A stretch of DNA of 64,000 bases from Thermincola carboxydiphila (GCA_016841045.1 JAENZX010000007.1:62001-126000), one strand, 5' to 3'; positions 4,228 through 25,594 are shown, counted from the first letter of the stretch. Numbers and translations: made by a program. The notes: generated from the sequence alone by a model not told the origin.

Positions 4228-4229
4228 AA

Positions 4230-6809: not shown

Positions 6810-6851
6810 GCGTTAGTCTCAAAATAATTGACAAATTGGAGGATAAGAAAA

Positions 6852-7420: not shown

Positions 7421-7423
7421 AAA

Positions 7424-7681: not shown

Positions 7682-7753
7682 AACGACAGCCTCCTTCGTT
7701 TTTCCTTCAGTATATCACAAATTAGAATTTTTTAACAGGGGGTGAAAAATGGT

Positions 7754-10246
7754 GTGAGCTTAGATACGATTTTTAAATTGAGTGTTATCGTTGGGATGAT
7801 TGACCATTTGTCAGGGCCAATGGCAAGGGTCAACTCCTCGGTTGATGGCTCGGTAAGTAAAATTGAAAAACTTAATCAAACCTTTGGAGATATGACCAAG
7901 ACCGGGGTTGCAATGACGGCGATAGGAAGTCAAATAACAAGTGCTATGCTTTCGCCGGTGGGAGCTACCTTTGAAACCAAAAGAGCTCTTGGAGAACTGT
8001 CTTCAGTCGGTGTCAAAGACCTTGAGACTCTTGAAAGTGCAGCAAAAGACTTCTCTGATACATGGGCCGGAACAACAAAGCCGGACTTCATCACGGCAGC
8101 CTATGACATCAAGTCCGGTATATCATCCCTGACGGATGAAGCCGTTGCAAAATATACGGAGCTTGCCGGTATAACGGCAAAGGGCACAAAGTCAAGTATT
8201 GCTGAAATGACAAGTCTCTTTGCTACCGGATACGGTATTTACAAGGGTTTTTATAAGGATTTGAATGACATGGAGTTTGGAGAAATGTTCTCTGCCGGGA
8301 TTGCAAAATCGGTGCAGCAATTCAAAACGAACGGCTCACAGATGGCCCAATCTATTCAGACCCTTGGGGCTTCAGCGACGTCCTCAAACGTTCCGCTCGA
8401 AGAGCAGCTCTCTATCCTCGGTATGTTGCAAGCAACAATGTCAGGAAGTGAAGCCGGCACAAAATACAAAGCTTTCTTGAGGTCGGCAGCAAAGGCAGGA
8501 GAAGAATTGGGACTCAGCTTCACAGATGCAAACAATCAGCTCTTGTCTATGCCGGAAATTCTTGAGCAGCTCCGGGGTAAATTCGGAGACACAATGGATG
8601 CTGCTGAAAAGATGGAGCTCCAAAAAGCCTTTGGAACGGATGAAGCGGTTGCTATGATTGACCTTCTTTACAACAAGACCGGAGACCTTCAAAGCAACAT
8701 CACCACTCTATATGGAGAGATGGGAAAAGGAATTGACGTGGCCCGGGGCATGGCAAATGCAATCAATGAGACTGAGGGTGAGAAATATATCCGGCTTCAG
8801 CAAAGAATCCGAAACGTCAAGGAGGAAATCGGAAACCAACTGCTTCCAACGGTCAACATGCTGCTGAGTAAAGGTGAAGTGGTTCTTGGGAAAATCAGTG
8901 ATTGGATTGAAAGGAATCAGCAGCTTACAAAAATTATTGCTCTTGTAGTTTTAACGATAGGAATTGTGTTGACTGTTTTAGGGTCGCTTATTGTGGTTGT
9001 TGGGGGCGTGGGCCTCATATTTACAAAAACTGCTAATATGGCATTCGGCTTTGGGAGAGCCCTTACTAAAATACTGGATATGCTAACCACTATTAGGATT
9101 CAGGCTATGTATGCCGGTGATGCAATAAAGGCAGGCTTTGGACATATGAAGAGCCTTGCATCAACGGCAGTGTCAGGAGTGAAAAGTGTCACGACATCCA
9201 TTATCAGTATGGGAAAAGCAGCCATTGTCAATGGGGCGACAGCAATCAAGAACTTTGTTATCAGCATGGCATCAATGGCAAGACAGGCAATCACAACGGC
9301 AGTCACAGCAATGCCGGGGCTTATTGCTTCAGTATGGTCATTCACGGCTGCACTCCTTGCTAATCCTATTACTTGGGTTGTTATTGGTATTGTGGCCCTG
9401 ATAGCAGCAATTATTCTCCTTTGGCAGAATTGGGACTCGGTGACTGCATGGATTCAAGGCGTTTGGAATGGATTTGTAAATGGCATTAAAGCTGGTTTTG
9501 ATTGGATAAGGAACTTGTTCTCAGGGATGCCTACATGGTTACAAATAGCAATTGCAGCATTTATGCCCTTTATAGGGATACCAATGCTGATAATAAACAA
9601 TTGGGACTCTATTGTTGCCTTCTTCAGTAACCTTTGGGTAAGAGTCAAGGGAACATTTACAAGCGGCATACAAGGGATAAAGGACTTTATAACCGGGACG
9701 TTTGCATGGTTCAGAGAGTCAGGCTCAAAGATACTAACAACCTTCACAGAAGGCATAAAGAGTGCGGTGTCAGCTCCTATTGAAGCAGTGAAAGGCGGCC
9801 TGTCAAAGATTAGAAAGCTTCTGCCCTTCTCTGATGCAAAGGAAGGCCCTCTCTCTACCCTTACACTATCAGGAAGAAGAATATTTGAGACCATAACAAG
9901 TGGAATGGTACAGACTCAAAACCTTCCTGCTGAGGTCACAGAGAATGCCTTTGCTGATGTTGGGTTGGCTGCTTCTTCAGATGGTTCAGAAGACGGCTTC
10001 TCAAATGCAAGCATCACGGCTCAGGATGAAATTAAAAAGGTTAACCTGAGAGAAATAACCAAGGAGAAATCAGAGAGCAAGCAGAGCTCCAAGGAAAAGG
10101 ATAACGCAACAATCATTGAAAAGCTTATTGTCCAAGTAGATATTAGCAAACTCAAAGACCTTCCAATGTTGTTTAAGCTACTGAAGGAAATCGAAGACTA
10201 TACAAACGGCAACGGAAGCGACTTGACACTGGTTGGGGAGGGATAA
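7754..10246 (+). CDS. Tail tape measure protein
   Basis: This 830-residue protein is the longest late gene. It shows the tape-measure pattern: an N-terminal TP901-like region (SLDTIFKLSVIVGMIDHLSG; ETKRALGELSSVGV near residue 75), a long helical middle, several hydrophobic segments (residues about 390-425, 540-565 and 595-625) and a charged C-terminus with coiled parts. It sets tail length and is ejected during infection. The start is chosen as GTG 7754, 8 bases after GGGGGTGA. The upstream GTG at 7742 lies within that ribosome site. Confidence 0.9.
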   Translation: MSLDTIFKLSVIVGMIDHLSGPMARVNSSVDGSVSKIEKLNQTFGDMTKTGVAMTAIGSQITSAMLSPVGATFETKRALGELSSVGVKDLETLESAAKDFSDTWAGTTKPDFITAAYDIKSGISSLTDEAVAKYTELAGITAKGTKSSIAEMTSLFATGYGIYKGFYKDLNDMEFGEMFSAGIAKSVQQFKTNGSQMAQSIQTLGASATSSNVPLEEQLSILGMLQATMSGSEAGTKYKAFLRSAAKAGEELGLSFTDANNQLLSMPEILEQLRGKFGDTMDAAEKMELQKAFGTDEAVAMIDLLYNKTGDLQSNITTLYGEMGKGIDVARGMANAINETEGEKYIRLQQRIRNVKEEIGNQLLPTVNMLLSKGEVVLGKISDWIERNQQLTKIIALVVLTIGIVLTVLGSLIVVVGGVGLIFTKTANMAFGFGRALTKILDMLTTIRIQAMYAGDAIKAGFGHMKSLASTAVSGVKSVTTSIISMGKAAIVNGATAIKNFVISMASMARQAITTAVTAMPGLIASVWSFTAALLANPITWVVIGIVALIAAIILLWQNWDSVTAWIQGVWNGFVNGIKAGFDWIRNLFSGMPTWLQIAIAAFMPFIGIPMLIINNWDSIVAFFSNLWVRVKGTFTSGIQGIKDFITGTFAWFRESGSKILTTFTEGIKSAVSAPIEAVKGGLSKIRKLLPFSDAKEGPLSTLTLSGRRIFETITSGMVQTQNLPAEVTENAFADVGLAASSDGSEDGFSNASITAQDEIKKVNLREITKEKSESKQSSKEKDNATIIEKLIVQVDISKLKDLPMLFKLLKEIEDYTNGNGSDLTLVGEG

Positions 10247-10248
10247 TC

Positions 10249-10854
10249 TTGATATATGTTGATGAAAGTACCATAAAAATTGGAGGGGTCATTCTCCCCG
10301 GCCTCTTCAAGAGTATTGAGATAAAAGGTGATGCTCTCATTGAGGAGCAGGAAGTTGAAGGCAGAAGCACAAAGCCAAAACAGGCAACGGGATATGAGGA
10401 TGCAAAGGTTAATTTGGAATTGGTTCTGCATGATGGCCCGGTTCTGACAAAACTGCAAAAGCTTGAAATGATTCAAAATTTGTTTAAAAAGCAGGGTCAA
10501 GCAAAGCCGACAGTTTATGAGATAGTCAACGAGCACACAGCAGCAAGAGGCATCACCAAGGTTCTTTTTAAGAATCTAACTACAAAGGAGCAAAGCAAAA
10601 AAGACGAGCTGTCAGTTACGATTGAGTTTTGGGAGTATATTGCTATGACTATTACTGCAACGAAAAGCACTGGAAGCACTTCCACGGCTCAGACGACAAG
10701 TGCAGCAACATCAAACTTGACCACGGAATATCAAAGCTATTTGAATAACCGTGGTGCAGCTCCTAAGCTAAAGGATAAGACCACAAAAACGGCAGCGATA
10801 GACAATGCAGACACACAGGAATACAGAGGCAGAATTGCTGCAATGCCTTATTAG
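10249..10854 (+). CDS. Putative tail/baseplate protein after tape measure
   Basis: A 201-residue protein starting with TTG 10249 (GGGGAGGG 6 bases before). The first 140 residues are mixed alpha/beta (DESTIKIGGVILPGLFKSIEI; ELVLHDGPVLTKLQKLEMIQ). The rest is a Ser/Thr/Ala-rich linker with TSTAQTTSAATS and a short tail with RGAAPKLKD. The position matches Mu gp43 or PBSX XkdP, which join tube and hub. No domain is firmly recognised. The preceding stop is 2 bases upstream, so it is co-translated with the tape measure. Confidence 0.6.
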   Translation: MIYVDESTIKIGGVILPGLFKSIEIKGDALIEEQEVEGRSTKPKQATGYEDAKVNLELVLHDGPVLTKLQKLEMIQNLFKKQGQAKPTVYEIVNEHTAARGITKVLFKNLTTKEQSKKDELSVTIEFWEYIAMTITATKSTGSTSTAQTTSAATSNLTTEYQSYLNNRGAAPKLKDKTTKTAAIDNADTQEYRGRIAAMPY

Positions 10855-10866
10855 TGAGGTGAGACA

Positions 10867-11622
10867 GTGGAAACAAATGAACTTTTTTATCCTGAAATCA
10901 ATGCTAAACTTGGGAGTTATACTTTTCAAAAGGGTGTTGAAATCGAAGTCTATTCCTCTAAGGATTCATACTTTGATTGGGCCAAAACAAGGTTCACTCA
11001 GCAGTTTAATGAGAAGATAACTCTCAATAAAAAAGACAAAGCTCTGATTGAGCTTGGATATGACGGAGTGTTTGATGAAGTCTTTCAGGGGTACGTGGTC
11101 AATCCAATGAGTGAAGGAAGTTATTCTAATGAGGTTGTCCTGAAGGATGACATGATACTTCTTGAGGAGACATACATCACTAATACTTTTTTAGAGGCAA
11201 CACCTCAAGAAATACTGAGGTTCTGCCTAAATAAAGCAGGAATAACAAACATGAAGATATCATCAAAGACATACCAAAGGAAAAAGGTTGTGCCTATATT
11301 CAAAAAGAATGTGATATCAGTCATTGAAGAGATTCATGCCATTTGGAAAATTAAAGAGGCATTTTACTTCTCGGGAGGCGTGTTCTATTGGGGAGAAAAG
11401 CCGGAGCAAAAGAAAGTATATGAGTTTGAGTATGGAATAAATATCATATCTCTTGAGAGGCCCGGTGGAGTTTGGGAGCTTGAGACAGTATCAACTCCCT
11501 TCATCAAGCACTCACAAAAAATTGTTGTAAGGCATCCAAAGGTATCAGGAGAATTTGAGACGAAAAAGGTTGTCTTTACAACCAATGAAACGGGGTTTAT
11601 AAGGACGTATATCTATTTTTAA
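10867..11622 (+). CDS. Baseplate hub protein, gpD/late control-like
   Basis: The 251-residue protein matches the contractile-tail hub family (Mu gp44, P2 gpD). It begins with a beta-rich region (YSSKDSYFDWAKTRFTQQF), has a TFLEATPQEILRFCLNKAGI segment near residue 110 and a region like QRKKVVPIFKKNVISVIEEI near 140. In related phages the hub carries the spike and closes the tail tube. The start is GTG 10867 after GAGGTGAG. It is shorter than P2 gpD (about 390), so the C-terminal domain is reduced. Confidence 0.75.
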   Translation: METNELFYPEINAKLGSYTFQKGVEIEVYSSKDSYFDWAKTRFTQQFNEKITLNKKDKALIELGYDGVFDEVFQGYVVNPMSEGSYSNEVVLKDDMILLEETYITNTFLEATPQEILRFCLNKAGITNMKISSKTYQRKKVVPIFKKNVISVIEEIHAIWKIKEAFYFSGGVFYWGEKPEQKKVYEFEYGINIISLERPGGVWELETVSTPFIKHSQKIVVRHPKVSGEFETKKVVFTTNETGFIRTYIYF

Positions 11623-11634
11623 GGAGGGAGAGAA

Positions 11635-11919
11635 ATGCTTGAGCAAATGATTCAAAATGTCATTGAAAAGCTTATAAAAGCAAGATATCAACACATAAAG
11701 CTCCCCTCTGCTGTATATGCAAAGGTTACAAAGGTTCAGGAATACGCGGACTATTCGGTTTACAATCTCAAAATACTTGACAAAAACAAGGAAATCAATT
11801 CTGAGTTTCCTGAGATTCCTGAAGTAAAATCAACAGTCAGGCTTGTAAATGGAGATATTGCAGCAGTGCTTCTCCTCTACGGTCAATTAAATGTTTATAT
11901 AGTTGGGAAGGTGGTTTGA
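11635..11919 (+). CDS. Short OB-fold baseplate/spike-like protein
   Basis: The 94-residue protein follows the hub gene with AAGGAGGG at 11622-11629. It has a short N-terminal helix (MLEQMIQNVIEKLIKARYQ) and then strands with YAKVTKVQEY and VRLVNGDIAAVLLLYGQLNVYIVGKVV, which resembles an OB fold. This is where Mu gp45 or PBSX XkdR-type (DUF2577-like) proteins lie. It is much shorter than Mu gp45, so it may be only the OB part, with the spike tip supplied by another protein. Confidence 0.6.
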   Translation: MLEQMIQNVIEKLIKARYQHIKLPSAVYAKVTKVQEYADYSVYNLKILDKNKEINSEFPEIPEVKSTVRLVNGDIAAVLLLYGQLNVYIVGKVV

Positions 11920-12332
11920 TGGCAGGGTTATATGATACAGATATAAAACTTGATGAAGATTGGCAATTGACTGCTGCTGCCAATGGTGATGCTCCCATCA
12001 CTTCAAACACCGATTGTCTTATTCAGGATATCAGGCTTGAGGCGTTGTCTCAAGAAGGTGAGCTCTTTTATAACGAGACTTGGGGATGGTCACTTATAGA
12101 CTTCATACAAATGCAGGATGATGACCTGACGAGATTGGAGATTGAACAAAGAATAAAAACAAAGCTCTCAAGGCGTGAAGAAATCGACAACGGAACGATT
12201 CAAACGGCTCTGAGTTTTGAAGATGACAAGATATCTGTCAAAGTGGCTTTCAAATTTATAAATGACTCAAGGCAGTACAATTTGAATATTGAACTGGACA
12301 GAGTCAGGGTTGAGGTGGTGATGGTGCAATGA
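11919..12332 (+). CDS. gp25-like baseplate wedge protein (Mu gp46/XkdS type)
   Basis: The 137-residue protein has the GPW/gp25 family layout: DIRLEALSQEGELFYNETWGWSL near residues 40-62 and LEIEQRIKTKLSRREEIDNGTI near 75-95. It forms the inner baseplate wedge that starts sheath assembly. The ATG at 11919 overlaps the stop of the preceding gene, and AAGGTGG is close upstream. It overlaps the baseplate J gene by 4 bases. Confidence 0.8.
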   Translation: MAGLYDTDIKLDEDWQLTAAANGDAPITSNTDCLIQDIRLEALSQEGELFYNETWGWSLIDFIQMQDDDLTRLEIEQRIKTKLSRREEIDNGTIQTALSFEDDKISVKVAFKFINDSRQYNLNIELDRVRVEVVMVQ

Positions 12333-13462
12333 TTGACGAAAAGATACTGGATGAAATCCTTCCAGTACCGGACAGAGAGGAACTTAAAAACTCAATAGAG
12401 CAGGAGCTCAAGGACGAGGGATTTGTTATAACCAACTTCAGCTCAGGAGGCGTGTTCTATACCATACTGATGATACTGATTCAGATACGAATTGAACTGG
12501 TAAAGCTCTTGAGAAAGGTCTTGAATAATATGTTTGTCTCCCATGCTGAAGATGTATGGCTTGAGCTGAAGGCAGCCGACTTCTCGAAGAAAAGGAAGCA
12601 GCCGACAAAAACTCAGGGATATGTAACTCTTGAGAGGGATGCTCCGGGGGATGCTGTGAAGGTTGCGAAGGGTGATGTCTTTAAGACTGAGCAGGACATC
12701 AACGGAGAAGAGCTCCGGTTCTTGGTTCTTGAGGATTCAATTCTGCAAAAGGATTCACTAAGTCAGAAGATTCTTGTTGAGGCTGAAAAGGAAGGCACAA
12801 AATACAATGTTCCTCCCGGACAGATAAAAAAATCACTCACTCACATTGAAGGTGTTGACAGGATATTGAATGATGCTGATTGGCTTGTTCAGGAAGGAAG
12901 TGACCTTGAGGATATTGAGAGCTTGAGAGGCAGGATATTAAACTCTTGGGCTGAGCTTTCGACCTTCCCTATTCGTGATAAATACAAGAATGTTTGTGAG
13001 GCGGTTGACGGCGTTCTGTTTGTTAGGGTTGACGACATGCATCCAAGGGGTCAGGGTACAGTTGATATTATTGTTACATCAACGGCAGGGGCTGCAACAC
13101 AAGGACTGCTTGACAAGGTTGCAGCAGAGGCAGACACAATCAAAGGGCCATATGATAACGTACTTGTGAAGTCTTCTGAGACTGTGCAGCAGGATATTCA
13201 AATTGTTGTTTACATTGCGGAGGATGCGAGTGACGAAGGTATTCAAGAGAAAGCTGAAGCAATCATCACGGATTTACTAAAAATCAGCAAAGACAGAGAG
13301 CTCAACAAGCTTTACAGGGATGACATTATATATGCTTTAAAGAAGGATATTCAGGTCTATAAGAAAGCAGATATTATCTCCCCTGCTACTGATGTAATCC
13401 TGAGTAATGACAAGGTGATTGTGCTTGGTCTGCTCAATATAACCGTTGAGAGGGTGCAGTGA
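12329..13462 (+). CDS. Baseplate J-like protein (Mu gp47)
   Basis: The 377-residue protein matches the baseplate J family: an N-terminal helical part, then beta-rich GYVTLERDAPGDAVKVAKGDVFKT-type sequence near residues 92-115, VPPGQIKKSLTHIEGVDRILN near 170, and LRGRILNSWAELSTFPIRDKYKNVCEAVDGV near 205-235. It builds the baseplate wedge round the hub. The start lies in the last bases of the gp25-like gene, with AGGTGGTGATGG upstream. Confidence 0.9.
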   Translation: MIDEKILDEILPVPDREELKNSIEQELKDEGFVITNFSSGGVFYTILMILIQIRIELVKLLRKVLNNMFVSHAEDVWLELKAADFSKKRKQPTKTQGYVTLERDAPGDAVKVAKGDVFKTEQDINGEELRFLVLEDSILQKDSLSQKILVEAEKEGTKYNVPPGQIKKSLTHIEGVDRILNDADWLVQEGSDLEDIESLRGRILNSWAELSTFPIRDKYKNVCEAVDGVLFVRVDDMHPRGQGTVDIIVTSTAGAATQGLLDKVAAEADTIKGPYDNVLVKSSETVQQDIQIVVYIAEDASDEGIQEKAEAIITDLLKISKDRELNKLYRDDIIYALKKDIQVYKKADIISPATDVILSNDKVIVLGLLNITVERVQ

Positions 13463-13463
13463 T

Positions 13464-14300
13464 ATGTTTGAAAAATTTCAGGATTATATGTATTACCTTC
13501 TTTATGGCCCTCTCAAGAAAATTACCAAGTTAAAGAATCAGTTTTATATACTGTTCAAGGTATTCGGTAAGGTATTTGACCAAACAAAGCAGGATATATT
13601 CAGGGTCAGAGAAGAGTCAATGATTATCAGTGCAAGTGAAAAGATGCTTGAGGAGCATGGTCGTGACAGGACTATGAAGAGGCTCAAGGGTGAAAGCGTT
13701 GAAAACTACAGGATGAGGCTTTCAATGAAAAATATTATTGCTGAGAAAGCCGGAACGAATGAAGGCATCCTCCTTGCACTCAAGGCTCTTGGATATGAAC
13801 AATCACGAATTGAGCCATTTTACATCCATGACCCTGACAGATGGGCTGAATTTACAATCTACCTTGCATCAAAACAACAAAGCGGAGTTAATGACATCAC
13901 CGTTATAGATAGCGAAGTTATGAAGGTGAAGCCTGCAAGTGGATTGCCTGCCTATGGGATTGAGGAATCTACTCAAATTGAAATCCGGTCAAGCTTCAAG
14001 AGTGGCTTTTCAAAATATCCTTTATGCAACAATCTTCTTTGTGGAGTGTGGCCTTATAATAATGACAATGTCGGATATCTGCTCAGCACGACTTTGAATG
14101 AGGAATCATCCCATAATGAAGGCAGCTTCTCCTATCCTCTGACCGGAGAGCTTGCTGCATCCGAAGAGCTATATCAGGAAATAGACTTTGTGCAGCTTGA
14201 GAAGGAAAGCTCAACAATGCAGACAGAGACAGAGTTTGAAGGTAATACAATCAGTTATCCGCTTTGTAATCAAATAAAAGCAGGACAATATCCGAATTAA
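13464..14300 (+). CDS. gp48-like tail tip protein (P2 gpI/Mu gp48 position)
   Basis: A 278-residue protein right after baseplate J, where Mu-like and P2-like phages encode gp48 or gpI. The N-terminal 100 residues are helical and charged, with ERLKGESVENYRMRLSMKN-like sequence and TNEGILLALKALGYE near residue 110; this region probably docks to gpJ. The C-terminal half has repeated short motifs, YPLCNNLLCGVWPYN and ISYPLCNQIKAGQYPN, about 90 residues apart. ATG 13464 is chosen because GAGAGGGTG precedes it; the upstream codon at 13446 does not. Confidence 0.7.
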   Translation: MFEKFQDYMYYLLYGPLKKITKLKNQFYILFKVFGKVFDQTKQDIFRVREESMIISASEKMLEEHGRDRTMKRLKGESVENYRMRLSMKNIIAEKAGTNEGILLALKALGYEQSRIEPFYIHDPDRWAEFTIYLASKQQSGVNDITVIDSEVMKVKPASGLPAYGIEESTQIEIRSSFKSGFSKYPLCNNLLCGVWPYNNDNVGYLLSTTLNEESSHNEGSFSYPLTGELAASEELYQEIDFVQLEKESSTMQTETEFEGNTISYPLCNQIKAGQYPN

Positions 14301-14314: not shown

Positions 14315-14626
14315 ATGAAAACATTAACTCAGACAGGAATTGACAAGCAGCTCTTGAGACTGCAAGATTCGTTGTCACATGCAACTTATCTGCTGAACGG
14401 ACAGCAAAAACAGGTTGATATCTTCAAGACGGAGATAGACCAAAACCTCATAAAAGTATTTGTGTACTTGGATGACACAGTCTCAGGAACGGTCAGTAAT
14501 ATCAGTTTAGTTGACAAGGACGGTGATGTGATAGCTCTTGCTGAAAGGGAATTTATAAAGCCTCAATCAAAAGGGCTGTACTCGGTCTTTGCATATAGGT
14601 TTGTAGAAGTGGAGGTGATTGCGTAA
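14315..14626 (+). CDS. Hypothetical tail-fibre-region protein
   Basis: A 103-residue protein with a helical first half (GIDKQLLRLQDSLSHATYLL) and a beta-rich second half (TVSGTVSNISLVDKDGDVIALAER). It has AAAGGAGG at 14299-14306. No family is recognised. It lies between the baseplate gp48-like gene and the DGR target, so it probably helps attach or build the tail fibre. Confidence 0.65.
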   Translation: MKTLTQTGIDKQLLRLQDSLSHATYLLNGQQKQVDIFKTEIDQNLIKVFVYLDDTVSGTVSNISLVDKDGDVIALAEREFIKPQSKGLYSVFAYRFVEVEVIA

Positions 14627-15073
14627 ATGAATCCTTATAACATGAAACAATGGAAAGACCATATTGTTGATGAAGCGACACAAGAAGTCATTCAGGAAGG
14701 GACTCCGGTTAGTGCATCAAACATGAATAACATGGAGACTGGGATTCTTGGAAATGACGGGCTTGCCTCAGTGCTAATTCAACAGTCAATGCAGTACAAA
14801 AGAAACATAGCTGACTTGGAAGGAGAACTGAGAGAAATTTCACTGACCAATACTCAGGAGTATCCTTTCAATAACTCAGAGATAACCGTTGCACTCCTGA
14901 AGGAAAGAGATACTTTAAATTATAGAGTGCTCACTGAGGTTGTCAGCTCCAACGGGATTGTCGGAGATATCGTTGTCTATGACAAAGCAAAGAACGGTTT
15001 TAAAATCAAGTACACCGGAAGTGCTGCAAGTGCAACGATTAAATGTTTTATTCAAGGAGGTATGTTTCAATAA
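14627..15073 (+). CDS. Tail fibre N-terminal-type protein
   Basis: The 148-residue protein begins YNMKQWKDHIVDEATQEVI, followed by QEGTPVSASNMNNMETGI. This conserved leader is found at the start of many Firmicute phage tail-fibre or baseplate-attached proteins. A short coiled stretch and a beta-rich C-terminal domain (residues 75-145) follow. It probably anchors the receptor-binding complex to the baseplate. It starts directly after the previous stop and its own stop overlaps the next ATG (TAATG). Confidence 0.65.
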   Translation: MNPYNMKQWKDHIVDEATQEVIQEGTPVSASNMNNMETGILGNDGLASVLIQQSMQYKRNIADLEGELREISLTNTQEYPFNNSEITVALLKERDTLNYRVLTEVVSSNGIVGDIVVYDKAKNGFKIKYTGSAASATIKCFIQGGMFQ

Positions 15074-15246
15074 TGGCGAATGTAATCATTAAAAGTAGTG
15101 AAAGGCAAAAAATGACAAACAAGGTCTTAAAGGACTTTGGACACAACAGCTCAAGTGCCGACAAGCAGACAAGAGAATATGCTGAGTGCGTGGCTCAAAA
15201 GAGTCATGAAGCAATTAAAAGAGCGGAGGGATTAAGAAAATGGTAA
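15073..15246 (+). CDS. Small helical phage protein
   Basis: A 57-residue basic protein (MANVIIKSSERQKM at the start) with AAGGAGG at 15054-15060 in front of the ATG at 15073. An earlier in-frame ATG at 15043 has no ribosome site. The middle is helical and rich in Ala, Glu and Lys. No family is recognised. It lies just before the fibre/DGR genes and overlaps the next gene by 7 bases. Confidence 0.6.
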   Translation: MANVIIKSSERQKMTNKVLKDFGHNSSSADKQTREYAECVAQKSHEAIKRAEGLRKW

Positions 15247-15572
15247 AAATCGTTGAGAAGAACGAAGGCGAAAAAATTAATATTGAGGTCGTTGATACTA
15301 AAATCACACTTGCAGGAGAAATGACACTTGACCTTGAGAAGTACGAAAGGGATTTTGACGTTCATATTGATATCTGTACCAATGAGTTTGGCTTCATGAT
15401 GTTTGGTATCAATGAAAGGTATGTTGCACAAATAGACATCCCTGCAAGAGCTTATGACACCATTATTGATGGTGAAGATGAGGACGGGAATCCAATGGAG
15501 AAGCAAGTTCCAATTCCTTTCAATATGGACAATGTAACAGTAACTTTATGGGCTAAAGGAGGAGCAAACTAA
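15240..15572 (+). CDS. Hypothetical protein preceding the DGR target
   Basis: A 110-residue acidic, beta-rich protein (VVDTKITLAGEMTLDLEKY; VHIDICTNEFGFMMFGINER). GGAGGG at 15226-15231 gives its ribosome site. Its stop codon overlaps the ATG of the DGR target (TAATG), so the two are made together in similar amounts. It could be the partner or chaperone that connects the variable protein to the fibre. No domain is recognised. Confidence 0.65.
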   Translation: MVKIVEKNEGEKINIEVVDTKITLAGEMTLDLEKYERDFDVHIDICTNEFGFMMFGINERYVAQIDIPARAYDTIIDGEDEDGNPMEKQVPIPFNMDNVTVTLWAKGGAN

Positions 15573-16642
15573 TGAGTAATTTTGATGATATGAAATTGGC
15601 GGTTGAGGCACTATCAGGAGGAAAAAACACAGTTAAATTTGACGATATGGGCCTCCCTTCTATCTTGGTTAGGATACCACTCTTTAAGAATGTAGATGTT
15701 ATTGCAGGCGGTGCGGATGCAGCACATCCAATGTTTATCGTGGACGGCGTTCAAATTCCGGAAGTGTTTATCTCTAAGTATCAAAACATTGTCATGAATG
15801 ACAGAGCATACAGTCTGCCATATAAAGACCCAAGAGCTTCCTTGACGTTTGACCAAGCGAAACTGTATTCAGAAAACAAGGGTGCAGGATGGCACTTGAT
15901 GACAAATGCTGAGTGGGCCGGAGTTGCTCTTTGGTGCAAGCAAAACGGATTTATGCCAAGAGGAAATAATAATTATGGCTCTGACTATTCTGCTCCTCAT
16001 GAGAAGGGAGTCGAAACATACGGTGGTGGAGACCCATACAAAACTTATAGAGTAGCGACTGGAAGTGGCCCTGCTTCTTGGGCTCATGACAATACGAATG
16101 AAGGCATCTTTGACCTTAACGGGAATGTCTATGAATGGGTTGGAGGCTTGAGGTTAAATAACGGGGAGATACAGATTATTCCTAATAACAACGCTGCAAA
16201 TATAGTTGACCAAACGGCAGCAAGTGCATTATGGAAAGCTATTTTGCCGGATGGAAGCTTGGTAGCTCCGGGAACAGCCGGAACGCTAAAATTTGATTAT
16301 ACGGCTGCTCCTACAGCAGGGACGGGCAATTTTCAAATATCTGACACAATAGATTATCCTCAAGCGGACGATACACCATACGGAGCAAAAACATTTGAAA
16401 CCTTGACAGCTAAAGCCGGAGTCGATATACCGGAAGTATTAAAAGCTTTAGGTATGTTCCCTCTTGATGCAAGTCACGGAGGAGATTCTATTTACTTCAG
16501 AAATAACGGAGAAAGGCTTCCGATTCGTGGCGGTTCTTGGTATATCACTTCCTCTGCCGGCGTGTTCAACGTCAACCTGAGCGACGTTCGCTCGAACTCG
16601 AGTACGAGGCTCGGCTTCCGCTCCGCTTTTGTCAATCTGTAA
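15572..16642 (+). CDS. DGR target: variable receptor-binding protein with C-type lectin/FGE fold
   Basis: The 356-residue protein has the formylglycine-generating-enzyme/C-type lectin fold used by DGR targets such as Mtd and TvpA. Visible signs are FISKYQNIVMND near residue 68, LTFDQAKLYSENKGAGWHLMTNAEW near 90-115, EGIFDLNGNVYEWVGG near 175 and the C-terminal LPIRGGSWY...VRSNS...LGFRSAF (315-353). The last part is the variable repeat, whose exposed positions 322, 325, 328, 337, 338, 344, 346 and 347 differ from the template. It is probably the phage receptor-binding tip. AAAGGAGG at 15557-15564 is its ribosome site. It has no export signal. Confidence 0.92.
   Translation: MSNFDDMKLAVEALSGGKNTVKFDDMGLPSILVRIPLFKNVDVIAGGADAAHPMFIVDGVQIPEVFISKYQNIVMNDRAYSLPYKDPRASLTFDQAKLYSENKGAGWHLMTNAEWAGVALWCKQNGFMPRGNNNYGSDYSAPHEKGVETYGGGDPYKTYRVATGSGPASWAHDNTNEGIFDLNGNVYEWVGGLRLNNGEIQIIPNNNAANIVDQTAASALWKAILPDGSLVAPGTAGTLKFDYTAAPTAGTGNFQISDTIDYPQADDTPYGAKTFETLTAKAGVDIPEVLKALGMFPLDASHGGDSIYFRNNGERLPIRGGSWYITSSAGVFNVNLSDVRSNSSTRLGFRSAFVNL
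16516..16627 (+). repeat. DGR variable repeat (VR)
   Basis: This 112-base block at the 3' end of the target gene matches the template at 17085-17196 with 11 mismatches. Ten mismatches are at template adenines: 16535, 16536, 16545, 16553, 16554, 16581, 16583, 16602, 16608 and 16610. One is at a template T (16609). The last 16 bases (16612-16627, CGGCTTCCGCTCCGCT) are identical, free of A and GC-rich, as expected for the initiation-of-mutagenic-homing (IMH) part. Confidence 0.95.
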
Positions 16643-16662
16643 TCTGTTTTCTGTTAGTCTGT

Positions 16663-16684
16663 AGGGAGAGTGATAACTCTCCCT
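16663..16684 (+). promoter_or_regulatory. Post-VR hairpin/cruciform of the DGR
   Basis: A perfect 9-bp stem AGGGAGAGT/ACTCTCCCT closes a GATA tetraloop (16672-16675), 21 bases after the target stop codon. DGRs of the BPP-1 type carry a GC-rich hairpin with a 4-base GRNA-type loop downstream of VR that aids target recognition. This element fits that description. Confidence 0.85.
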
Positions 16685-16711
16685 TAAATCTGCGACAAGC
16701 GAGGAAGATAA

Positions 16712-17053
16712 ATGGAAGAACTGAAGATATATCAAAAGGTTTATGACATGATAGTGTATGGAAATAACTGCTTATTGCAATTTCCAAGGTCTGAAAGATA
16801 TGCACTTGCAACAGAGATAAAAAAATCAATGTACACATTGCTGAAGTTGGTCATTTCTGCAAATAAGAAGTATTATAAAAAGACTACTCTTCAGGAAATA
16901 GATATTGAGCTTGAAACACTCAAGACTTTCATTAGAGTTGCAGCAGACCCGAAATTCAAATACTTGGGATTGAAGCAATATGAGAATTGGAGCAAGATGC
17001 TGAGTGAAATTGGACGTATGTTGGGCGGTTGGATGAAGGCAGTTAATAAATAA
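16712..17053 (+). CDS. avd: DGR accessory variability determinant (Avd)
   Basis: This 113-residue basic, all-helical protein lies between VR and TR, the usual place of Avd. Four helices are visible (about 4-24, 27-55, 60-78 and 88-108), with YALATEIKKSMYTLLKLVI and LGLKQYENWSKMLSEIGRMLGGW as typical segments of the Avd/23S-rRNA-intervening-sequence four-helix-bundle fold. Avd forms a pentamer that binds the reverse transcriptase and the template RNA and is required for mutagenic retrohoming. GAGGAAG precedes the ATG. Confidence 0.9.
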   Translation: MEELKIYQKVYDMIVYGNNCLLQFPRSERYALATEIKKSMYTLLKLVISANKKYYKKTTLQEIDIELETLKTFIRVAADPKFKYLGLKQYENWSKMLSEIGRMLGGWMKAVNK

Positions 17054-17368
17054 ATATAGAATCTATGGGGGATGAGTCTATTGAGCTTCCGATTCGTGGC
17101 GGTAATTGGTATAACACTTCCAATGCCGGCGTGTTCAACGTCAACCTGAACAACGTTCGCTCGAACTCGAATACGAATATCGGCTTCCGCTCCGCTCTGC
17201 TCTCATAGTCAATGGCTGTAACCTCAACGGGGTTACAGATAGTACAGAGAGGACAAAGGGGCTCATTTCCCTGCCGAAAGGCAAAATATTGAATTGCTAT
17301 AGAAGCATCAAGTAAAACATGAAAGATGTTACATATAGCGTAAAATAAAAAGCAAGGGGATGCTTGTA
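17054..17368 (+). ncRNA. DGR template RNA region (TR plus spacer)
   Basis: The 315 bases between avd and the RT start hold the template repeat (17085-17196) and a structured spacer of about 170 bases. In BPP-1 the RNA reaching from upstream of TR into the spacer is the RT template and primer. The exact ends here cannot be seen. One clear stem-loop in the spacer is at 17216-17238: CTGTAACC pairs with GGTTACAG around a 7-base loop. Confidence 0.7.
17085..17196 (+). repeat. DGR template repeat (TR)
   Basis: This is the invariant copy of the VR, offset by 569 bases. It contains 25 adenines, mostly as AAC and AAT codons in the phase of the target gene, so A mutagenesis gives many amino-acid choices and never a stop from AAY. 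The 3' 16 bases are identical to VR. The block lies in an in-frame remnant that starts MGDESIELPIRGG (ATG 17065) and stops at TAG 17206. Confidence 0.95.
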
Positions 17369-18490
17369 TTGTCTCAGAAAATAAAGGGTATATTCCCAAA
17401 AATCTATGACTTTGAAAATCTTTATATAGCAGCTCTCGAAGCAAAGAAGAGCAAACGCTTCAAGGATGAAGTGTTAAAATTTAATAGCAATCTTGAAGAA
17501 AACTTGATTATCATACAAAATGAACTCATTCATAAAACTTATAAAGTGGGCAAATACAGACAATTTTATATAAACGAGCCAAAAAAGAGATTGATTATGG
17601 CTCTTCCCTTCAAAGATAGGGTTATACAGTGGGCTATATACAGAAATTTATATCCAATCTATGACAAGCAGTTTATTTATGATAGTTATGGTTGCAGGGT
17701 CGGAAAAGGCACTCACAAGGCGGCAGATAGACTTCAATATTGGTTGCGGCAAGTAGACAGGAAACAACAGAAATACTATTATCTAAAGCTTGACATCTCG
17801 AAGTATTTCTATAGAGTAAATCATGCGATATTGCTTGATATTTTACGAAAAAAAATCGAAGATAAAGACTTGATGTGGCTGCTTGAAATCATTGTAAATA
17901 GTGAGGATGTTCCTTTTGGCCTTCCTGCCGGCATGGAGGCTGACCAATGCTCGGACGAAGAGAGGTTATTTGACACGGGGATGCCTATTGGAAACCTGAC
18001 CTCTCAATTGTTTGCCAATGTCTATCTGAATGAGCTTGACCAATATGCAAAACATAATTTAAGAATCCATTACTATATCCGGTATATGGATGATATAATA
18101 ATACTATCTGACAATAAAAAGTATCTGCATCAAGTAAAAGAGGAGATTGAGATATTCCTGAAGGAGAAGCTTGCTCTTGATTTGAATAAAAAGACGGCTA
18201 TTAGACCTATATCATGCGGTATTGAGTTTGTTGGCTTCAGGTTGTGGCCCACTCATAGGAAATTGAAGAAAAGCGGCATAAAGAAGATTAAGAAAAGGAT
18301 TAAAACGCTTCAAAAAGCCTACAGAAACGGCTCAATGACCTTTGAGAAGGTAAACGCTTCAATGCAGTCTTATTTTGGTATTATGAAGCATTTTAACAGC
18401 TATAACTTTAAAACAAAGCCCCTGAATGAAACGGCCTTCAAACGTGATGAAAAACCATCCAATCAGGAGCGTTATTCTCAAAATAAATGA
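17369..18490 (+). CDS. DGR reverse transcriptase
   Basis: The 373-residue protein carries the seven RT blocks. Examples are LIMALPFKDRVIQWAIYRNL near residue 75, KLDISKYFYRVNH near 140, the DGR-diagnostic MPIGNLTSQLFANVYL near 205 (IGxxxSQ instead of QGxxxSP), and the catalytic YMDD near 240. It copies the template RNA with adenine-specific misincorporation, and the cDNA replaces VR. TTG 17369 is preferred as start because AGGGG lies 9 bases upstream; an ATG at 17360 is only one base from that site. A basic C-terminus (KKSGIKKIKKRIKTL) fits RNA binding. Confidence 0.95.
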   Translation: MSQKIKGIFPKIYDFENLYIAALEAKKSKRFKDEVLKFNSNLEENLIIIQNELIHKTYKVGKYRQFYINEPKKRLIMALPFKDRVIQWAIYRNLYPIYDKQFIYDSYGCRVGKGTHKAADRLQYWLRQVDRKQQKYYYLKLDISKYFYRVNHAILLDILRKKIEDKDLMWLLEIIVNSEDVPFGLPAGMEADQCSDEERLFDTGMPIGNLTSQLFANVYLNELDQYAKHNLRIHYYIRYMDDIIILSDNKKYLHQVKEEIEIFLKEKLALDLNKKTAIRPISCGIEFVGFRLWPTHRKLKKSGIKKIKKRIKTLQKAYRNGSMTFEKVNASMQSYFGIMKHFNSYNFKTKPLNETAFKRDEKPSNQERYSQNK

Positions 18491-18541: not shown

Positions 18542-18590
18542 TTTTGCCAAAAATCTTGAGAACTTTTGCCAAAAATTTTGAGCGGCTACA
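18542..18590. repeat. Right-end transposase-binding repeats of the Mu-like prophage
   Basis: Two 19-base direct repeats, TTTTGCCAAAAATCTTGAG (18542-18560) and TTTTGCCAAAAATTTTGAG (18564-18582), differ at one base and are spaced 22 bases apart, two DNA turns. The element then ends in GCGGCTACA with terminal CA at 18589-18590, so read inwards it starts 5'-TGTAG. Mu-type elements end in TG...CA with repeated transposase sites. The host gene resumes at 18591. Confidence 0.82.
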
Positions 18591-19980
18591 ATAGGCGTAG
18601 AAATGGATTTAGTGTAAAAAGCAGAAAATATCCTACTGACAGCGACGACGAATCATTGCCGATTGAAGTAATTCCACCACTAAGACTGGGTAAAAGCCAC
18701 CATCCTGAAATCATGAAGCTTATAACAAACAAAAACAAGGTCTTCGCAAATCTTTTAATATCGGTACCACCCAAGATCAGCACAAAAAATGAATAAATCG
18801 TCAATCCAGTCAAAAACAGTGCACCAACCATTGCATGAGAGATAATAACAAGATTAAGACTTATGACCAAACCTAACACCTTGGTTGTTTCACTTCTCGG
18901 GCTATCTAATATCTCCACAACAAAATAAATAAGCAGGGGCAAAAACACCGCTGCCATCACCCTTGGCAGGTTTCCTTCAGAAAATGCAACCCTTAAATTA
19001 TCTGGAACAACGGACCACATAACCGCTAAGGTCAACGCAGCTCCCAAACCGAGCCTTTTGTGAAAAACCAGCCAAAAAGCGCTGCCGGTAAACCCGATCA
19101 AAAACAGGAAAAGGTTTGCGGCTTTAAATACATCCCCTGTAAAATAAGTGATAAAGCTCAAAACATAATAAGACATCGGGGCGTAGTACCTAAACGGGTC
19201 AATCCCGTTATACCACCCTGCCAAATAGTGTGGAAATATGTTGCCATTTTGAATTGAATTAATCAGAAATTCGGTTTTAAATAAATGCCCCCATGTATCT
19301 GATCCCCATGGGAAGGGTGACGAACTAAACAAAACCGGGCTGTATAGCACTCCATTTAAGATAAAGACAATGAAAAGAGAGGCTAAAAGATGCCATTTCT
19401 TCGCTGCAGGCGTGTTTTTAGGCCCTGCATCGCTCTCACCCAACAATTCTGCTGCTGCAGCCACTTCTCCGGCAGTTATTTCATCAACCGCATTGCCGTT
19501 CACTCCAACGGCAGTGGCACCCCGGCTTGGCTTAATACTTTCTGACTTTAAATGGGCTAACTCTGGTTCACCGCTAAAGACCGGCGGGATTTCCTCAGAT
19601 ACCTGAGCATTTAAGTCAGTGATAAGAAAACCCTTTGTTGGAGATTCTTTAATTAATAGTTCTTCAAGGTGAAATTCCGAGGCAGATAAACGCTTCATTA
19701 ATCCCTGGGAAAAAAACAAGCCGAGATTTTCAGTGGATGGGTTTATCTGATGGAATGGTTTAAAATCATTCAGCAGCTTTCCTTCAAATGAGCTGAGATA
19801 TTCCCTTACAATTTTGTCTACTTCAGCAAAACCAATTTCTAGATCAGGATTTTCAAACGTTTCCCCACCAATTTTTAGCGCAAGCTCCCACATATGTGTA
19901 TGAGGTTTTCCTTTTACATTATTAATGACTACCCAGTGGTGGGCCGACAAAAAGAATGTCATAGTGAGATGTACTCTCAT
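18586..19980 (-). pseudogene. PTPS-like/membrane fusion protein gene truncated by the prophage
   Basis: The N-terminal part (residues 1 to about 120) resembles 6-pyruvoyltetrahydropterin synthase/QueD, with AHHWV near residue 11 and HTHMWEL near 25. A linker follows, then a polytopic membrane domain of the PTPS-related type with at least six hydrophobic segments, WGSDTWGHLFKTEFL near 230 and FRYYAPMSYYVLSF near 255. The start ATG 19980 has GGAGG just upstream; an earlier ATG at 20004 lies before that site. The reading frame runs into the phage end, and the stop TAG (18588-18586) is phage sequence, so the C-terminal part is lost. The missing 3' part should lie left of the prophage. Confidence 0.82.
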
Positions 19981-20246
19981 TAATTTCCTCCGGTTTACCC
20001 TCAAACTTTATTTGGCGGTTTAAAAATCATCTTATTAAGAATTTTTGAGAAGAAAGATAAAATTTGTCGATTTATGTAGATTATATTTATTTTACCATAA
20101 ATTGACCACTCATATATATACTAAGTTTCTGTTTATTTTTGATTTATTAATAATAGCTTACTTAAAAAATGTGGCAGTAGTAGTCAGCTTGAACTATAAT
20201 TGAAAATAAGATTAATTCTGTTGATATAAGAAAGGAGAACCCCCAG

Positions 20247-20939: not shown

Positions 20940-23171
20940 CTAAACTATTAAATCTTCAGCACCTTCACTGAACCTGACAAAAAAGGTTGTCCCTTCGTGA
21001 CTTGTTTCAAAGTCAATCCTCGCATTGTGACGGTCAGCAATACTATAAGTTACGGCAAGTCCTAATCCTGTACCGGATTCCTTAGTGGTAACAAAGGGAG
21101 TCCCTAGCTTTTTAATGATTTCCGGGTCTATTCCAGTTCCCTCATCCTTTACAGAAAGTACTGTAAACCCTGCCTCCTTGTACGTTCTTATGCTGACAAT
21201 GCCACCTGGCGCCATTGCTTCAAGTCCGTTTCTTACAAGGTTTATTATCAACTGACTTAACTCTTTTTCATCCAATGCTAAATCAGGTATGTCCTGAGTC
21301 TCCAGCTTTATATATTTATCTGAAACCATAGCATCTGCCTGCAAAAGAGGCAATAGGTTTTTAATTACAGCATTTAAACTATGTGGCTTGAGTTCTACCT
21401 TTTTATTTTTTGCCAGAGAAAGATATTCGGTAATGATAGAGTTGGCCCTGTCCAGTTCCTCAATCATAAGACTAAATTGTTCCCGTTTTCGGGGATTATC
21501 TTCATTAAATGACAGCAGCTGCATAAATCCCCTTACAGTAGTCATTGGGTTTCTTACTTCATGACCAATTCCTGCTGCCATCTCTCCAACCATGTGAAGC
21601 TGATCTAACCGTGCCAGCTCCTTCTCAAATTTTTGTATTTCAGTAAGGTCAATTCCCACACTAATAATACCTGTTGGGGTTCCATCAGATTTCTTTATTA
21701 ACGTTACTATCCGGTGAACAGGCACAACAACCCCGTCTTTTCTTACTACTTCACTACGACCTTCCCAATACCCTTTCGCCGTCAAACTGGCTTTTACAGC
21801 AGGGCTGCTAATCCTAGAACTCTCAGGCATCAAAGGTATTATAGAACAATCTTTACCTATTACTTCTTCTGCCTTCCACATGTATAACTTTTCAGCAAAA
21901 CTATTGCAGTGAGTTATCTTTCCTTCTAAATCAGTAGCAATTATTGCATTGCGTACATGCTTAAGGATATTAGCCTGAAAAACAATACGTTCATTGGCCT
22001 TCTTTCGTTCAGTTATATCCCAAAGGTATACTCCTAGACCTTCTTCCGACGGGTAAGCCATAATATCAAACCACCTGTCGGTTTTCTCAAAATATTTTTG
22101 AAAATGTACTGTCTTCTGCTCTTCCATTGCTTTACGCAGCTCACAAAATATGATTTCTCCATAGGGGTAAATTTCTCTTATATCTTTACCTATAAGTTCA
22201 TTTCTGTTCATTGAAATCTGGTATTCAGCTTCACTGTTGGCATAACTGATTTTCCACTTTTTATCCAGGGCATAATAAGCACCTGTCATGCGCTCAAGTA
22301 TTTTAGTCGCTTTTTCATTAGCGGCAAGCAATTCTGCTTCAACTGCCTCACGCATACTAACTTCCGCCCGAAGTTGGTCAATAACTGACTGAAGGTCGGT
22401 AGTCCTTTGATGGACCAAATCAATTACTGGGTTCAATTCCGGTAAAATTTGGGTTATTTCACCTGAATTAACTTGAGTAACAGCTACCGAAAGCATTTCT
22501 AATTCATTACGAAGCCTTCGGAGAAACCACCATGCCATCCGGCAGGCTACAATAGCAACTATTAAGACAGCTCCAATAATAATGGCTGTTTCTATCATTA
22601 TTTGTACATACAAATCCCGAATTCTTGTGTTGACAAATAAATGCCCGATTAGTTTATTATTCCTGTATATCGGAGCAGCAACCGCTAAGATTGGCTCATT
22701 GTTCCAGATTAAAGTACTGAAGGTCTTCTGCACAAGCGGTTTACCAGTCCTATAAACAGATAAATATGGAGAATTTGCGGGGATATCGACCAGTTTATCC
22801 GGTGTCAAATTGGGCCCTATAGCGACCCGGCTTTTAAGTTCACGTGAATAGAACCCGGCACCTATACCAGGATAAGCCGCTGTAATCGCATCAATTTCCG
22901 GCTGCAGGGCAGCATTAATTATTTCAATCTTTCTTTGCTTTGGCTGGTTTAAAGCATTCTCCCGCCTCAGTATGTCAGTAAAGGAGCCCTCAAGGTGCCT
23001 GTCCAACACCTTAGTCAATGCAAACAGGGTTTCCTGCCGCTCAGCCAATGAATATCTGTAATATTGATACTCTGTTATTAGTGTTATGATCGTTGCAGGA
23101 ACAATTATCAAAAGAAGGCTAAAAATATAAATACGTTTAGTAATCTGCAAAGGGAATAGGGTCCTCATCAT
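20940..23171 (-). CDS. Membrane PAS-domain sensor histidine kinase (copy 1)
   Basis: About 743 residues. A transmembrane helix near residues 10-30 and a second near 195-215 frame a Cache-like extracytoplasmic sensor (IPANSPYLSVYRTGKPLV). Two PAS domains follow (about 295-395 and 405-525), then HisKA with GHEVRNPMTTVRGFMQLL near 555 and HATPase with NLVRNGLEAM, DEGTGIDPE and GTGLGLA. The H-box is of the sporulation-kinase (KinA/KinE-like) type. No response regulator is adjacent, so it probably feeds a common phosphorelay such as Spo0F/Spo0A. ATG 23171 fits AGGTGA better than the upstream GTG 23180. It is a tandem paralogue of the next gene. Confidence 0.9.
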   Translation of the reverse strand: MMRTLFPLQITKRIYIFSLLLIIVPATIITLITEYQYYRYSLAERQETLFALTKVLDRHLEGSFTDILRRENALNQPKQRKIEIINAALQPEIDAITAAYPGIGAGFYSRELKSRVAIGPNLTPDKLVDIPANSPYLSVYRTGKPLVQKTFSTLIWNNEPILAVAAPIYRNNKLIGHLFVNTRIRDLYVQIMIETAIIIGAVLIVAIVACRMAWWFLRRLRNELEMLSVAVTQVNSGEITQILPELNPVIDLVHQRTTDLQSVIDQLRAEVSMREAVEAELLAANEKATKILERMTGAYYALDKKWKISYANSEAEYQISMNRNELIGKDIREIYPYGEIIFCELRKAMEEQKTVHFQKYFEKTDRWFDIMAYPSEEGLGVYLWDITERKKANERIVFQANILKHVRNAIIATDLEGKITHCNSFAEKLYMWKAEEVIGKDCSIIPLMPESSRISSPAVKASLTAKGYWEGRSEVVRKDGVVVPVHRIVTLIKKSDGTPTGIISVGIDLTEIQKFEKELARLDQLHMVGEMAAGIGHEVRNPMTTVRGFMQLLSFNEDNPRKREQFSLMIEELDRANSIITEYLSLAKNKKVELKPHSLNAVIKNLLPLLQADAMVSDKYIKLETQDIPDLALDEKELSQLIINLVRNGLEAMAPGGIVSIRTYKEAGFTVLSVKDEGTGIDPEIIKKLGTPFVTTKESGTGLGLAVTYSIADRHNARIDFETSHEGTTFFVRFSEGAEDLIV

Positions 23172-23218
23172 ACAGTTCACCTATCTTTTAGGATTTGTGA
23201 CAAAAAATTGATGGGATT

Positions 23219-25471
23219 TTAAACAGCATTATTTAAGTAAGCCTCTTGGGATACCGAAACCGTATCTCTGAACTTAACGAAAAAGGTTGTCCCTTCAGGA
23301 GTTGATTCAATATCTATTGCAGCATTATGCCTGCCGACAATACTGTAACTTACCGCAAGCCCAAGCCCAGTTCCGGTTTCCTTAGTGGTAACAAAAGGGG
23401 TTCCAAGACTATCCATTATTTGAGGGTCAATACCTGATCCCTCATCCTTAACTGCCAATAGTACAAATCCTGCATCCATGTATGTTTTTAAGATAACGGT
23501 CCCCCCGGGTTTCATAGCTTCAAGTCCATTCCTTACAAGGTTTAATAGTAACTGGGTAATTTCTTTTTCATCCAACAACAAATCAGGTATGTTTTCAAGT
23601 TCGGTTTGAATATACTTATCGGAAACCATAGCATCTGCCAACAGAAGAGGTAAGATATTTCTAATCAATGAATTCAGGCTTTGAGGTTTCAGCTCTACTT
23701 TTTTATTTTTTGCCAGAGATAGGTATTCAGTAATTATGGAGTTGGCACGGTCAAGTTCTTCAATCATAAGCTTGTATTTCTCCTGTTTAAGAGAATTTTC
23801 CTCTTTAGCAGCAAGCAGCTGCATAAAGCCTCTTACAGTAGTCATAGGGTTTCTCACTTCATGCCCTATGCCGGCCGCCATTTCCCCAACCATGTGCAGA
23901 CGGTCAAGCCTGACTAACTCTTTTTCAAGTTTTTTCCTCTCAGTAAGATCAATGCCTACACTAATAATCCCAGTCGAAATCCCTTCCGGATTTTTAATTA
24001 AGGTTACAATTCTGTGTATCGGAACAACAACCCCACCTTTTGTTACTACCTCTATGTCTCCTTCCCAATAGCCTTTAGTTGTCAGATAAGCTCGTACGAC
24101 ACGATCGGACATTCCAAGCCCTTCCGGTATTACCATAAACTCATCGATATTGCGTCCCACAAATTCATTTGTCTTCCACCCGTATAAAGTTTCGGCAAAA
24201 CTGTTACAATAGGTAACTTTGCCTTCCAAATCAGTTGTAAACACTGCATTCCTTACGTGATTTAGGAGATTAGCCTGAAACCTAATTCTCTCTTCAGCAT
24301 TTTTCCGTTCCGTTATATCCCGGAAGTACACCCCCAGACTTTCTTTTGAAGAGTAAGAGGTAATCTCAAACCACTTGCCAATTGATTTCGCATAGATTTG
24401 AATATGACCGCTCTGCTGCACCGAGAATGCTGTTGTAAGGCAGTCAGTAAATGTGTCACCGTCGGGAAACACTTCCCATAGTGCCTTTCCTATAACATCG
24501 TCCCTTTTTGCTGATATCTGTTGTTCTGCCGCAAGGTTGATATATGTAATATGCCAGTCTTTATCCAAGGCGAAAAAGGCATCTGTAACACTCTCAACAA
24601 TGCTTGTTATCTTCTCATTTGCTTCAATAAGTTCTTCTTCAACTTTTTCACGCTTTGTAATTTCCGTTACCAACTGTTTAACTAATAATTCCAGTTCTCT
24701 GGTATGTTTTCCCACATGGTCAATAATAGGGGTTAACTCCGGGAGTATTCGATGTACATCTCTGGAATCCCCCCGTATAACTGCACCTGCAAACAGTTCT
24801 AGTTCAACCTTGAGTTTCTTCAAAAAACTCCATGATAGAGTCAGTGTCAGTATCACTACTGATATTCCGATTAAGAATACAATAATAATATCTTTGAATA
24901 TCAGGACATAAAAGTGCGTTAATCTGGCATTAGCAAAAACATGTCCAATTATTTTACCGTTTCTGTAAATAGGATAAATAAGTGATAAAACAGATTGCCC
25001 ATTCCACATCGATGAACTAACGGTTTTATGCAAAAATGGTCTGCCATCTTGATACACCTTCAGACGCGGGGAATCTTTTGGCAGCGGTGTTAATGAGTTA
25101 ATATTGAAATTAGGGCCGAAAGCAACTCTGCTGTTTAGTTCTTTCGAATAATAACCCATGCCGATTTCAGGATATGCTGTTAATAGGCGGTCGATTTTTG
25201 ATTGCAGCGCTTGATTAAGAATAAGAACCTGCTCCCGCGTGGACTTATTGTCGGCCTTTTTTTCTTTCAATATTGTGGAGAAATCCTTATCTATTTCCTT
25301 GTCCAATACCCTTGCAACCGAATATAAAGTATTGGTTTTTTCATTCACTTCGCTGTAGTAATATTGTAATTGGGTAACCAAAGTAATAACTAACACCGGG
25401 ACAATTATAATTAAGCTGCCGAAAAGGGATATCCGTTTGGTAATTTCAAACGGAAACAAGTTCCTACACAT
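23219..25471 (-). CDS. Membrane PAS-domain sensor histidine kinase (copy 2)
   Basis: About 750 residues with the same plan as copy 1: TM helix, Cache-like sensor (LPKDSPRLKVYQDGRPFL), TM helix, two PAS domains, HisKA with GHEVRNPMTTVRGFMQLL and HATPase with DEGSGIDPQ and GTGLGLA. The kinase halves are nearly superimposable with copy 1 while the sensor halves diverge, which points to tandem duplication followed by a change of ligand. ATG 25471 is used because AAGGTG lies 6 bases upstream. The 38-48 bases between the two genes suggest one transcript. A TGTCGAA Spo0A-like box is in the upstream region. Confidence 0.9.
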   Translation of the reverse strand: MCRNLFPFEITKRISLFGSLIIIVPVLVITLVTQLQYYYSEVNEKTNTLYSVARVLDKEIDKDFSTILKEKKADNKSTREQVLILNQALQSKIDRLLTAYPEIGMGYYSKELNSRVAFGPNFNINSLTPLPKDSPRLKVYQDGRPFLHKTVSSSMWNGQSVLSLIYPIYRNGKIIGHVFANARLTHFYVLIFKDIIIVFLIGISVVILTLTLSWSFLKKLKVELELFAGAVIRGDSRDVHRILPELTPIIDHVGKHTRELELLVKQLVTEITKREKVEEELIEANEKITSIVESVTDAFFALDKDWHITYINLAAEQQISAKRDDVIGKALWEVFPDGDTFTDCLTTAFSVQQSGHIQIYAKSIGKWFEITSYSSKESLGVYFRDITERKNAEERIRFQANLLNHVRNAVFTTDLEGKVTYCNSFAETLYGWKTNEFVGRNIDEFMVIPEGLGMSDRVVRAYLTTKGYWEGDIEVVTKGGVVVPIHRIVTLIKNPEGISTGIISVGIDLTERKKLEKELVRLDRLHMVGEMAAGIGHEVRNPMTTVRGFMQLLAAKEENSLKQEKYKLMIEELDRANSIITEYLSLAKNKKVELKPQSLNSLIRNILPLLLADAMVSDKYIQTELENIPDLLLDEKEITQLLLNLVRNGLEAMKPGGTVILKTYMDAGFVLLAVKDEGSGIDPQIMDSLGTPFVTTKETGTGLGLAVSYSIVGRHNAAIDIESTPEGTTFFVKFRDTVSVSQEAYLNNAV

Positions 25472-25594
25472 GAACCGCACCTTTCTTTCAACATGACGTT
25501 ATTCGACGCTATTGGACAACATTAACAAGAAATGATAAAACTAATTATAATATCAATTAATGTCAAAAGTCGAGTGAAAAAGGTCGAACTATTC

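Follow-up and report, generated by a model that had tools for sequence, protein, structure and literature searches.

Many phage diversity-generating retroelements (DGRs) occur in Firmicutes (Roux et al. 2021, PMC8144416). The Mu-like Faecalibacterium phage Mushu makes a 5-bp duplication and carries a DGR with Avd, for which variability of the variable repeat (VR) has been evidenced in virions; its target is a Hoc-like capsid protein (PMC5883640). Faecalibacterium phage Lagaffe also carries a DGR with Avd, and its target is of the FGE type (PMC5883640). In Thermus aquaticus, a prophage bearing Mu-like annotations has a DGR near its end (PMC4605624), and TaqVP (PDB 5vf4) is the DGR variable protein of a T. 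aquaticus prophage (PMC6328139). At the right end of Bacillus phage BalMu-1 (NC_030945), a Mu-like phage of Bacillus alcalophilus, a SUMF1/FGE-type target, Avd, template repeat (TR), RT-14 RNA and reverse transcriptase (RT) follow one another. The corresponding cassette of Bordetella phage BPP-1 is arranged as mtd-avd-TR-brt.

We analysed a 64,000-nt window of Thermincola carboxydiphila DNA (contig C49:62001-126000 of a 4.16-Mb genome, whose neighbourhood the analysis named as Bacillota). DGR parts span positions 15572-18490 in the order of BPP-1: target gene with 3' VR, GATA-loop hairpin, avd, TR and a DGR-type RT. The original prediction had described this canonical arrangement, and every part was found at or very near the coordinates it gave. 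In window coordinates, the features are:

1-14300, plus strand: rest of the prophage late region (Mu F-like, protease, major head protein, sheath, tape measure, baseplate J)
15572-16642, plus strand: DGR target gene, 356 aa, FGE-type C-type-lectin fold, TaqVP homologue (phmmer, AlphaFold2, PHROG)
16516-16627, plus strand: VR at the 3' end of the target gene (alignment to TR)
16613-16627, plus strand: probable IMH, GGCTTCCGCTCCGCT (VR/TR alignment; role by analogy with BPP-1)
16663-16684, plus strand: hairpin/cruciform downstream of the VR, AGGGAGAGT-GATA-ACTCTCCCT (DNA fold)
16712-17053, plus strand: avd, accessory variability determinant, 113 aa (PF22296, DivGenRetAVD, PHROG 3206)
17085-17196, plus strand: TR (repeat pair with VR)
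17195-17338, plus strand: structured RNA between TR and RT, Rfam RT-14, RF02921 (covariance model)
17360-18490, plus strand: DGR reverse transcriptase, 376 aa (motifs, RVT_1, PHROG 1423)
18543-18590, plus strand: prophage right end, with two TTTTGCCAAAAAT...TTGAG motifs and terminal ...GGCTACA

We saw no frameshift or internal stop in the ORFs of the cassette, RT and avd included, and no part was broken, which bears out the earlier statement that all parts look intact. Further VR or TR copies were not found in the same genome, nor were further close RTs; one other RT match was weak (28% over part of the RT).

The cassette closely resembled that of BalMu-1, which has the same right-end order and whose RT, Avd and target are 56%, 55% and 47% identical to ours, respectively; in BalMu-1, however, the RT is followed by holin and endolysin genes, whereas here the RT is the last gene. 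Mushu likewise combines a DGR with Avd in a Clostridia Mu-like phage, although with its Hoc-like target. The Lagaffe RT is 54% identical to ours, but that phage has an IS30-type transposase and so is not Mu-like by transposase, whereas this prophage has a MuA-type enzyme. The DGR of the T. aquaticus Y51MC23 prophage has the same part order, and its target and ours are homologous along their entire length (E 2e-66; TM 0.93); it differs in host phylum and TR sequence, with about 40% identity between the target proteins. BPP-1 shares the gene order, Avd, a GRNA-loop hairpin and a structured RNA between TR and RT, yet its RT (Brt) and Avd are only 32% and 28% identical, respectively, and Mtd cannot be aligned by sequence and has extra domains. 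In principle, then, nothing here is new: DGRs of Mu-like Clostridia phages have already been published, and the BalMu-1 right end is nearly the same. The earlier remark that such an element is less commonly described was overstated, with Mushu and BalMu-1 on record and 42 TR/VR-bearing relatives, nearly all from Bacillota, in one genome scan.

VR and TR are 90% identical over 112 nt. Ten of their 11 mismatches fall on TR adenines, which make up 25 of the 112 TR bases (hypergeometric p = 5.5e-7). The lone exception, T>G at 16609 (VR)/17178 (TR), lies within a changed run, AATA to AGGC; because the TRs of relatives carry T or C at the position equivalent to 17178, the probable cause is an error by the RT or a point mutation in the VR. 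Read in the VR frame, the TR has 10 AAY codons, no change of an adenine can create a stop codon, and the TR adenines allow about 6e14 theoretical protein variants. Both repeats end in the 15-nt GGCTTCCGCTCCGCT and then diverge (TTTGTC after the VR, CTGCTC after the TR), as expected of a probable IMH and IMH* by analogy with BPP-1. The hairpin, 35 bp after the VR, has a 9-bp stem and a GATA loop; the DNA fold of its 36-nt stretch gave z = -5.4, and no shuffle was as good. Phage DGR hairpins have 7-10 bp stems and 4-nt GRNA loops and lie 4-34 bp after the VR (Guo et al. 2011, PMC3240598); ours has the same design, at a distance one beyond that range. Most relatives keep the GRNA loop and its position, 33-41 bp from the VR.

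Avd, RT, hairpin and RNA are all members of named families. Avd matched bAvd (PF22296, E 3e-35), PHROG 3206 and the NCBIfam model DivGenRetAVD (128 bits against a cut-off of 80); a sequence search of the PDB with Avd returned no match. The RT contains the motifs IGNLTSQ and YMDD and matched RVT_1 (E 2e-25), PHROG 1423 'Reverse transcriptase' (E 7e-143) and the solved RT 8ub7 (E 5e-50). We rejected its identification as a group II intron or antiviral RT, for which scores were far under cut-off.

A phmmer search of the PDB with the target gave full-length homology to 5vf4 (E 2e-66). The AlphaFold2 model of the target, built on 54 relatives (pLDDT 95.7), superposed on 5vf4 with a TM of 0.93 and an rmsd of 2.2 Å at 40% identity; the next structural matches, with much lower scores, were Treponema TvpA, formylglycine-generating enzymes and Mtd. 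Because the TaqVP superposition was by far the best in the PDB comparison, the target as modelled is a single FGE-type C-type-lectin-fold domain with its variable residues at the C-terminus. The protein also matched PHROG 2889 (E 8e-139), and its C-terminus matched the PHROG tail family phrog_5302 (E 4e-12). We infer that this protein most likely serves the phage in receptor binding.

The prophage itself is complete. It is 33,254 bp long, has TGT...ACA ends and is flanked on both sides by the 5-bp target duplication ATAGG. Its left end lies left of the window at C49:47337 (TGTTGATTAACAG...), and host sequence resumes at 18591, its first bases being the duplicated ATAGG. No prophage gene follows the RT, whose stop is 100 bp from the right end at 18590; the earlier placement of a whole DGR at the right-hand end of this Mu-like prophage was thus confirmed, and the prophage proved complete as well, its ends being exact and a 5-bp duplication present. 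Head and contractile-tail genes of Mu type were identified (protease, major head protein, sheath, tape measure and baseplate J), as were a MuA-type transposase (PHROG 310, E 2e-93) and a MuB-type DNA transposition protein (PHROG 296, E 3e-68), both within C49:49923-53008, to the left of the window. The neighbouring genes had been described as tail-fibre genes: baseplate genes do lie just upstream, whereas the small ORFs at 14315-15572 belong to PHROG families of unknown function. The insertion splits a host gene for a PTPS-related membrane protein (window 18591-20004 and C49:44870-47336); joining the flanks with a single ATAGG restores an in-frame ORF of 1,292 codons. Farther into the host sequence (window 20940-25480, minus strand) are two adjacent, similar PAS-domain sensor histidine kinase genes, probably a tandem duplication.

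Between TR and RT, Rfam RT-14 (RF02921) matched over its full length at 17195-17338 (62.8 bits against a gathering threshold of 48.1), and it was present at the equivalent place in 14 out of 25 other loci tested and in BalMu-1; BPP-1 has Rfam Phage_DGR (RF03022) instead between TR and brt. The fold of this region across 20 relatives comprised six helices and showed strong covariation, with changes on both sides in 26 of 34 pairs, and 92.6% of cells were paired, against 36-55% when the partners were slid. The outermost helix joins the TR 3' end (CUCCGCU) to AAAGGGG in the spacer. Because the TR 3' part is nearly invariant, covariation backs only the inner half of this helix. The spacer RNA seems to base-pair with the 3' end of the TR, and RT-14 is a probable counterpart of the BPP-1 spacer RNA; in our reading, it would form the template-RNA scaffold of this Firmicutes-phage DGR clade. 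The fuller proposal, that RT-14 fills the role of the BPP-1 spacer RNA and that the outermost helix with the TR holds the IMH-like end as the cDNA start site, seems to us evenly balanced between true and false. None of the papers searched tied RT-14 to DGRs.

In the reading of the whole cassette that we favour, the region from the TR through the spacer RNA would be transcribed, and Avd and RT would act on the transcript, in which the folded spacer would also pair with the 3' terminus of the TR. By analogy with BPP-1, cDNA would be made with random bases opposite TR adenines and would replace the VR, with the GC-rich 3' end common to both repeats (IMH) and the hairpin beyond the VR directing the exchange. 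Altered residues would fall in the C-terminal ligand site of the C-type-lectin-fold target, most likely a receptor-binding protein, and through such changes the phage may try out new receptors.

We collected relatives, mostly from Bacillota, in one genome scan (46 loci) and one viral scan (best 80 of 116). TR/VR pairs were obtained for 112 relatives, 42 genome loci and 70 viral or phage loci; a locus with the pair in the other orientation (L054) was excluded from the counts. Mismatches fell on TR adenines in 513 of 532 cases in the genome loci and in 857 of 892 cases in the viral or phage loci, about 96% together, percentages that are somewhat inflated by the partial selection of pairs for adenine bias. 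Four loci (L029, L115, L116 and L142) have an identical TR and an identical 300-nt upstream flank; between their VRs, 14-19 of 24 adenine positions differ, and no other position does. Between two loci of the phage's own genus (L008 and L074), whose flanks are 12% diverged, the VR differs at 14 of 23 adenine positions and nowhere else. Because the VRs of near-identical relatives differ at adenines only, the DGR clade is, judging from these sequences, active in nature. The expectation that related strains would carry different VRs therefore held for near-identical relatives; a second sequence of the same prophage with another VR allele was not found in the genome contigs or among the IMG/VR matches listed, the nearest having 80-85% RT identity.

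Those nearest relatives are four siblings, from Bacillota MAG Ch109 (L007), Desulforamulus putei (L008) and IMG/VR (L073 and L074). They share 80-85% RT and 90-92% Avd identity, the same terminal repeats and the DGR as last module, but carry other VR alleles and, after the same end, four other flanking sequences, as random Mu-type insertion predicts. The Ch109 genome also encodes a MuA homologue (79% identity) about 29 kb from the RT, as in this prophage (spacing by arithmetic). When 17 genomes were searched for MuA, three of those with related RTs proved to hold strong relatives (at least 62% identical); the DGR lineage therefore extends beyond phages that carry this transposase.

Anaerovorax sp. 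IOR16 has three DGR copies, of which one (L009, 4749-7199) has lost avd and one repeat, and its target runs directly into the TR flank through a hybrid VR/TR. This is as expected from VR-TR recombination, which would be a natural route of DGR inactivation. At another locus (L035; VR and TR at 346-461 and 961-1076), the A mismatches run both ways, seven in each direction, which suggests that the TR itself may have been changed or overwritten.

Several other readings of the locus can be weighed against this evidence. That there is no DGR at all, and that a chance repeat happens to lie beside a group II intron-like RT, draws on the fact that the best NCBIfam model for the RT is a group II intron RT, yet that model scored 143 bits against a cut-off of 300. 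The adenine bias (p 5.5e-7), an Avd score above cut-off, an order conserved across relatives and a target homologous to TaqVP refute this reading, to which we give a negligible chance. A different question is what the DGR diversifies. It could act on a virion decoration or adhesion protein that binds mucus, biofilm or surfaces, rather than on a tail receptor-binding protein; a lone C-type-lectin domain like TaqVP, lacking the beta-prism and trimerisation domains of Mtd, would fit such a role. We nevertheless consider this unlikely, given the phrog_5302 match of the C-terminus (E 4e-12) and the position of the target, which closes the tail/baseplate block (Baseplate_J at 12329, tail protein at 13446). 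Mu-like phages keep their tail fibres at this position, and no other tail-fibre candidate lies downstream. Phage Mu has an invertible tail-fibre segment in the corresponding region.

The cassette could also be complete in anatomy but recently frozen, its expression or activity lost in this lysogen. VR and TR differ by only 11 changes, the single T>G suggests a possible ordinary point mutation since the last homing event, and decayed copies do exist, such as the one in Anaerovorax sp. IOR16 (L009), in which avd was lost through VR/TR recombination. Against this stand the intact ORFs, RNA structure, IMH, hairpin, prophage ends and target duplication, and we regard a frozen element as very unlikely. 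With the cassette intact, activity of this copy is likely. We hold with high confidence that the cassette is a functional BPP-1-type DGR and the last module of a complete Mu-like prophage.

To the DGRs already known from Mu-like Firmicutes phages, this locus adds a clean, complete and well-preserved member whose prophage ends are exact, and its sibling prophages show that the cassette is retained as a terminal module adjoining the tail genes. The RT-14 observation connects DGR function with an RNA family whose name reflects nothing more than its RT neighbourhood. If true, a helix between the TR end and RT-14 that holds the cDNA start site would explain the near-invariance of that part of the TR, and the RT-14 fold offers a testable template-RNA structure for a DGR clade other than that of BPP-1.
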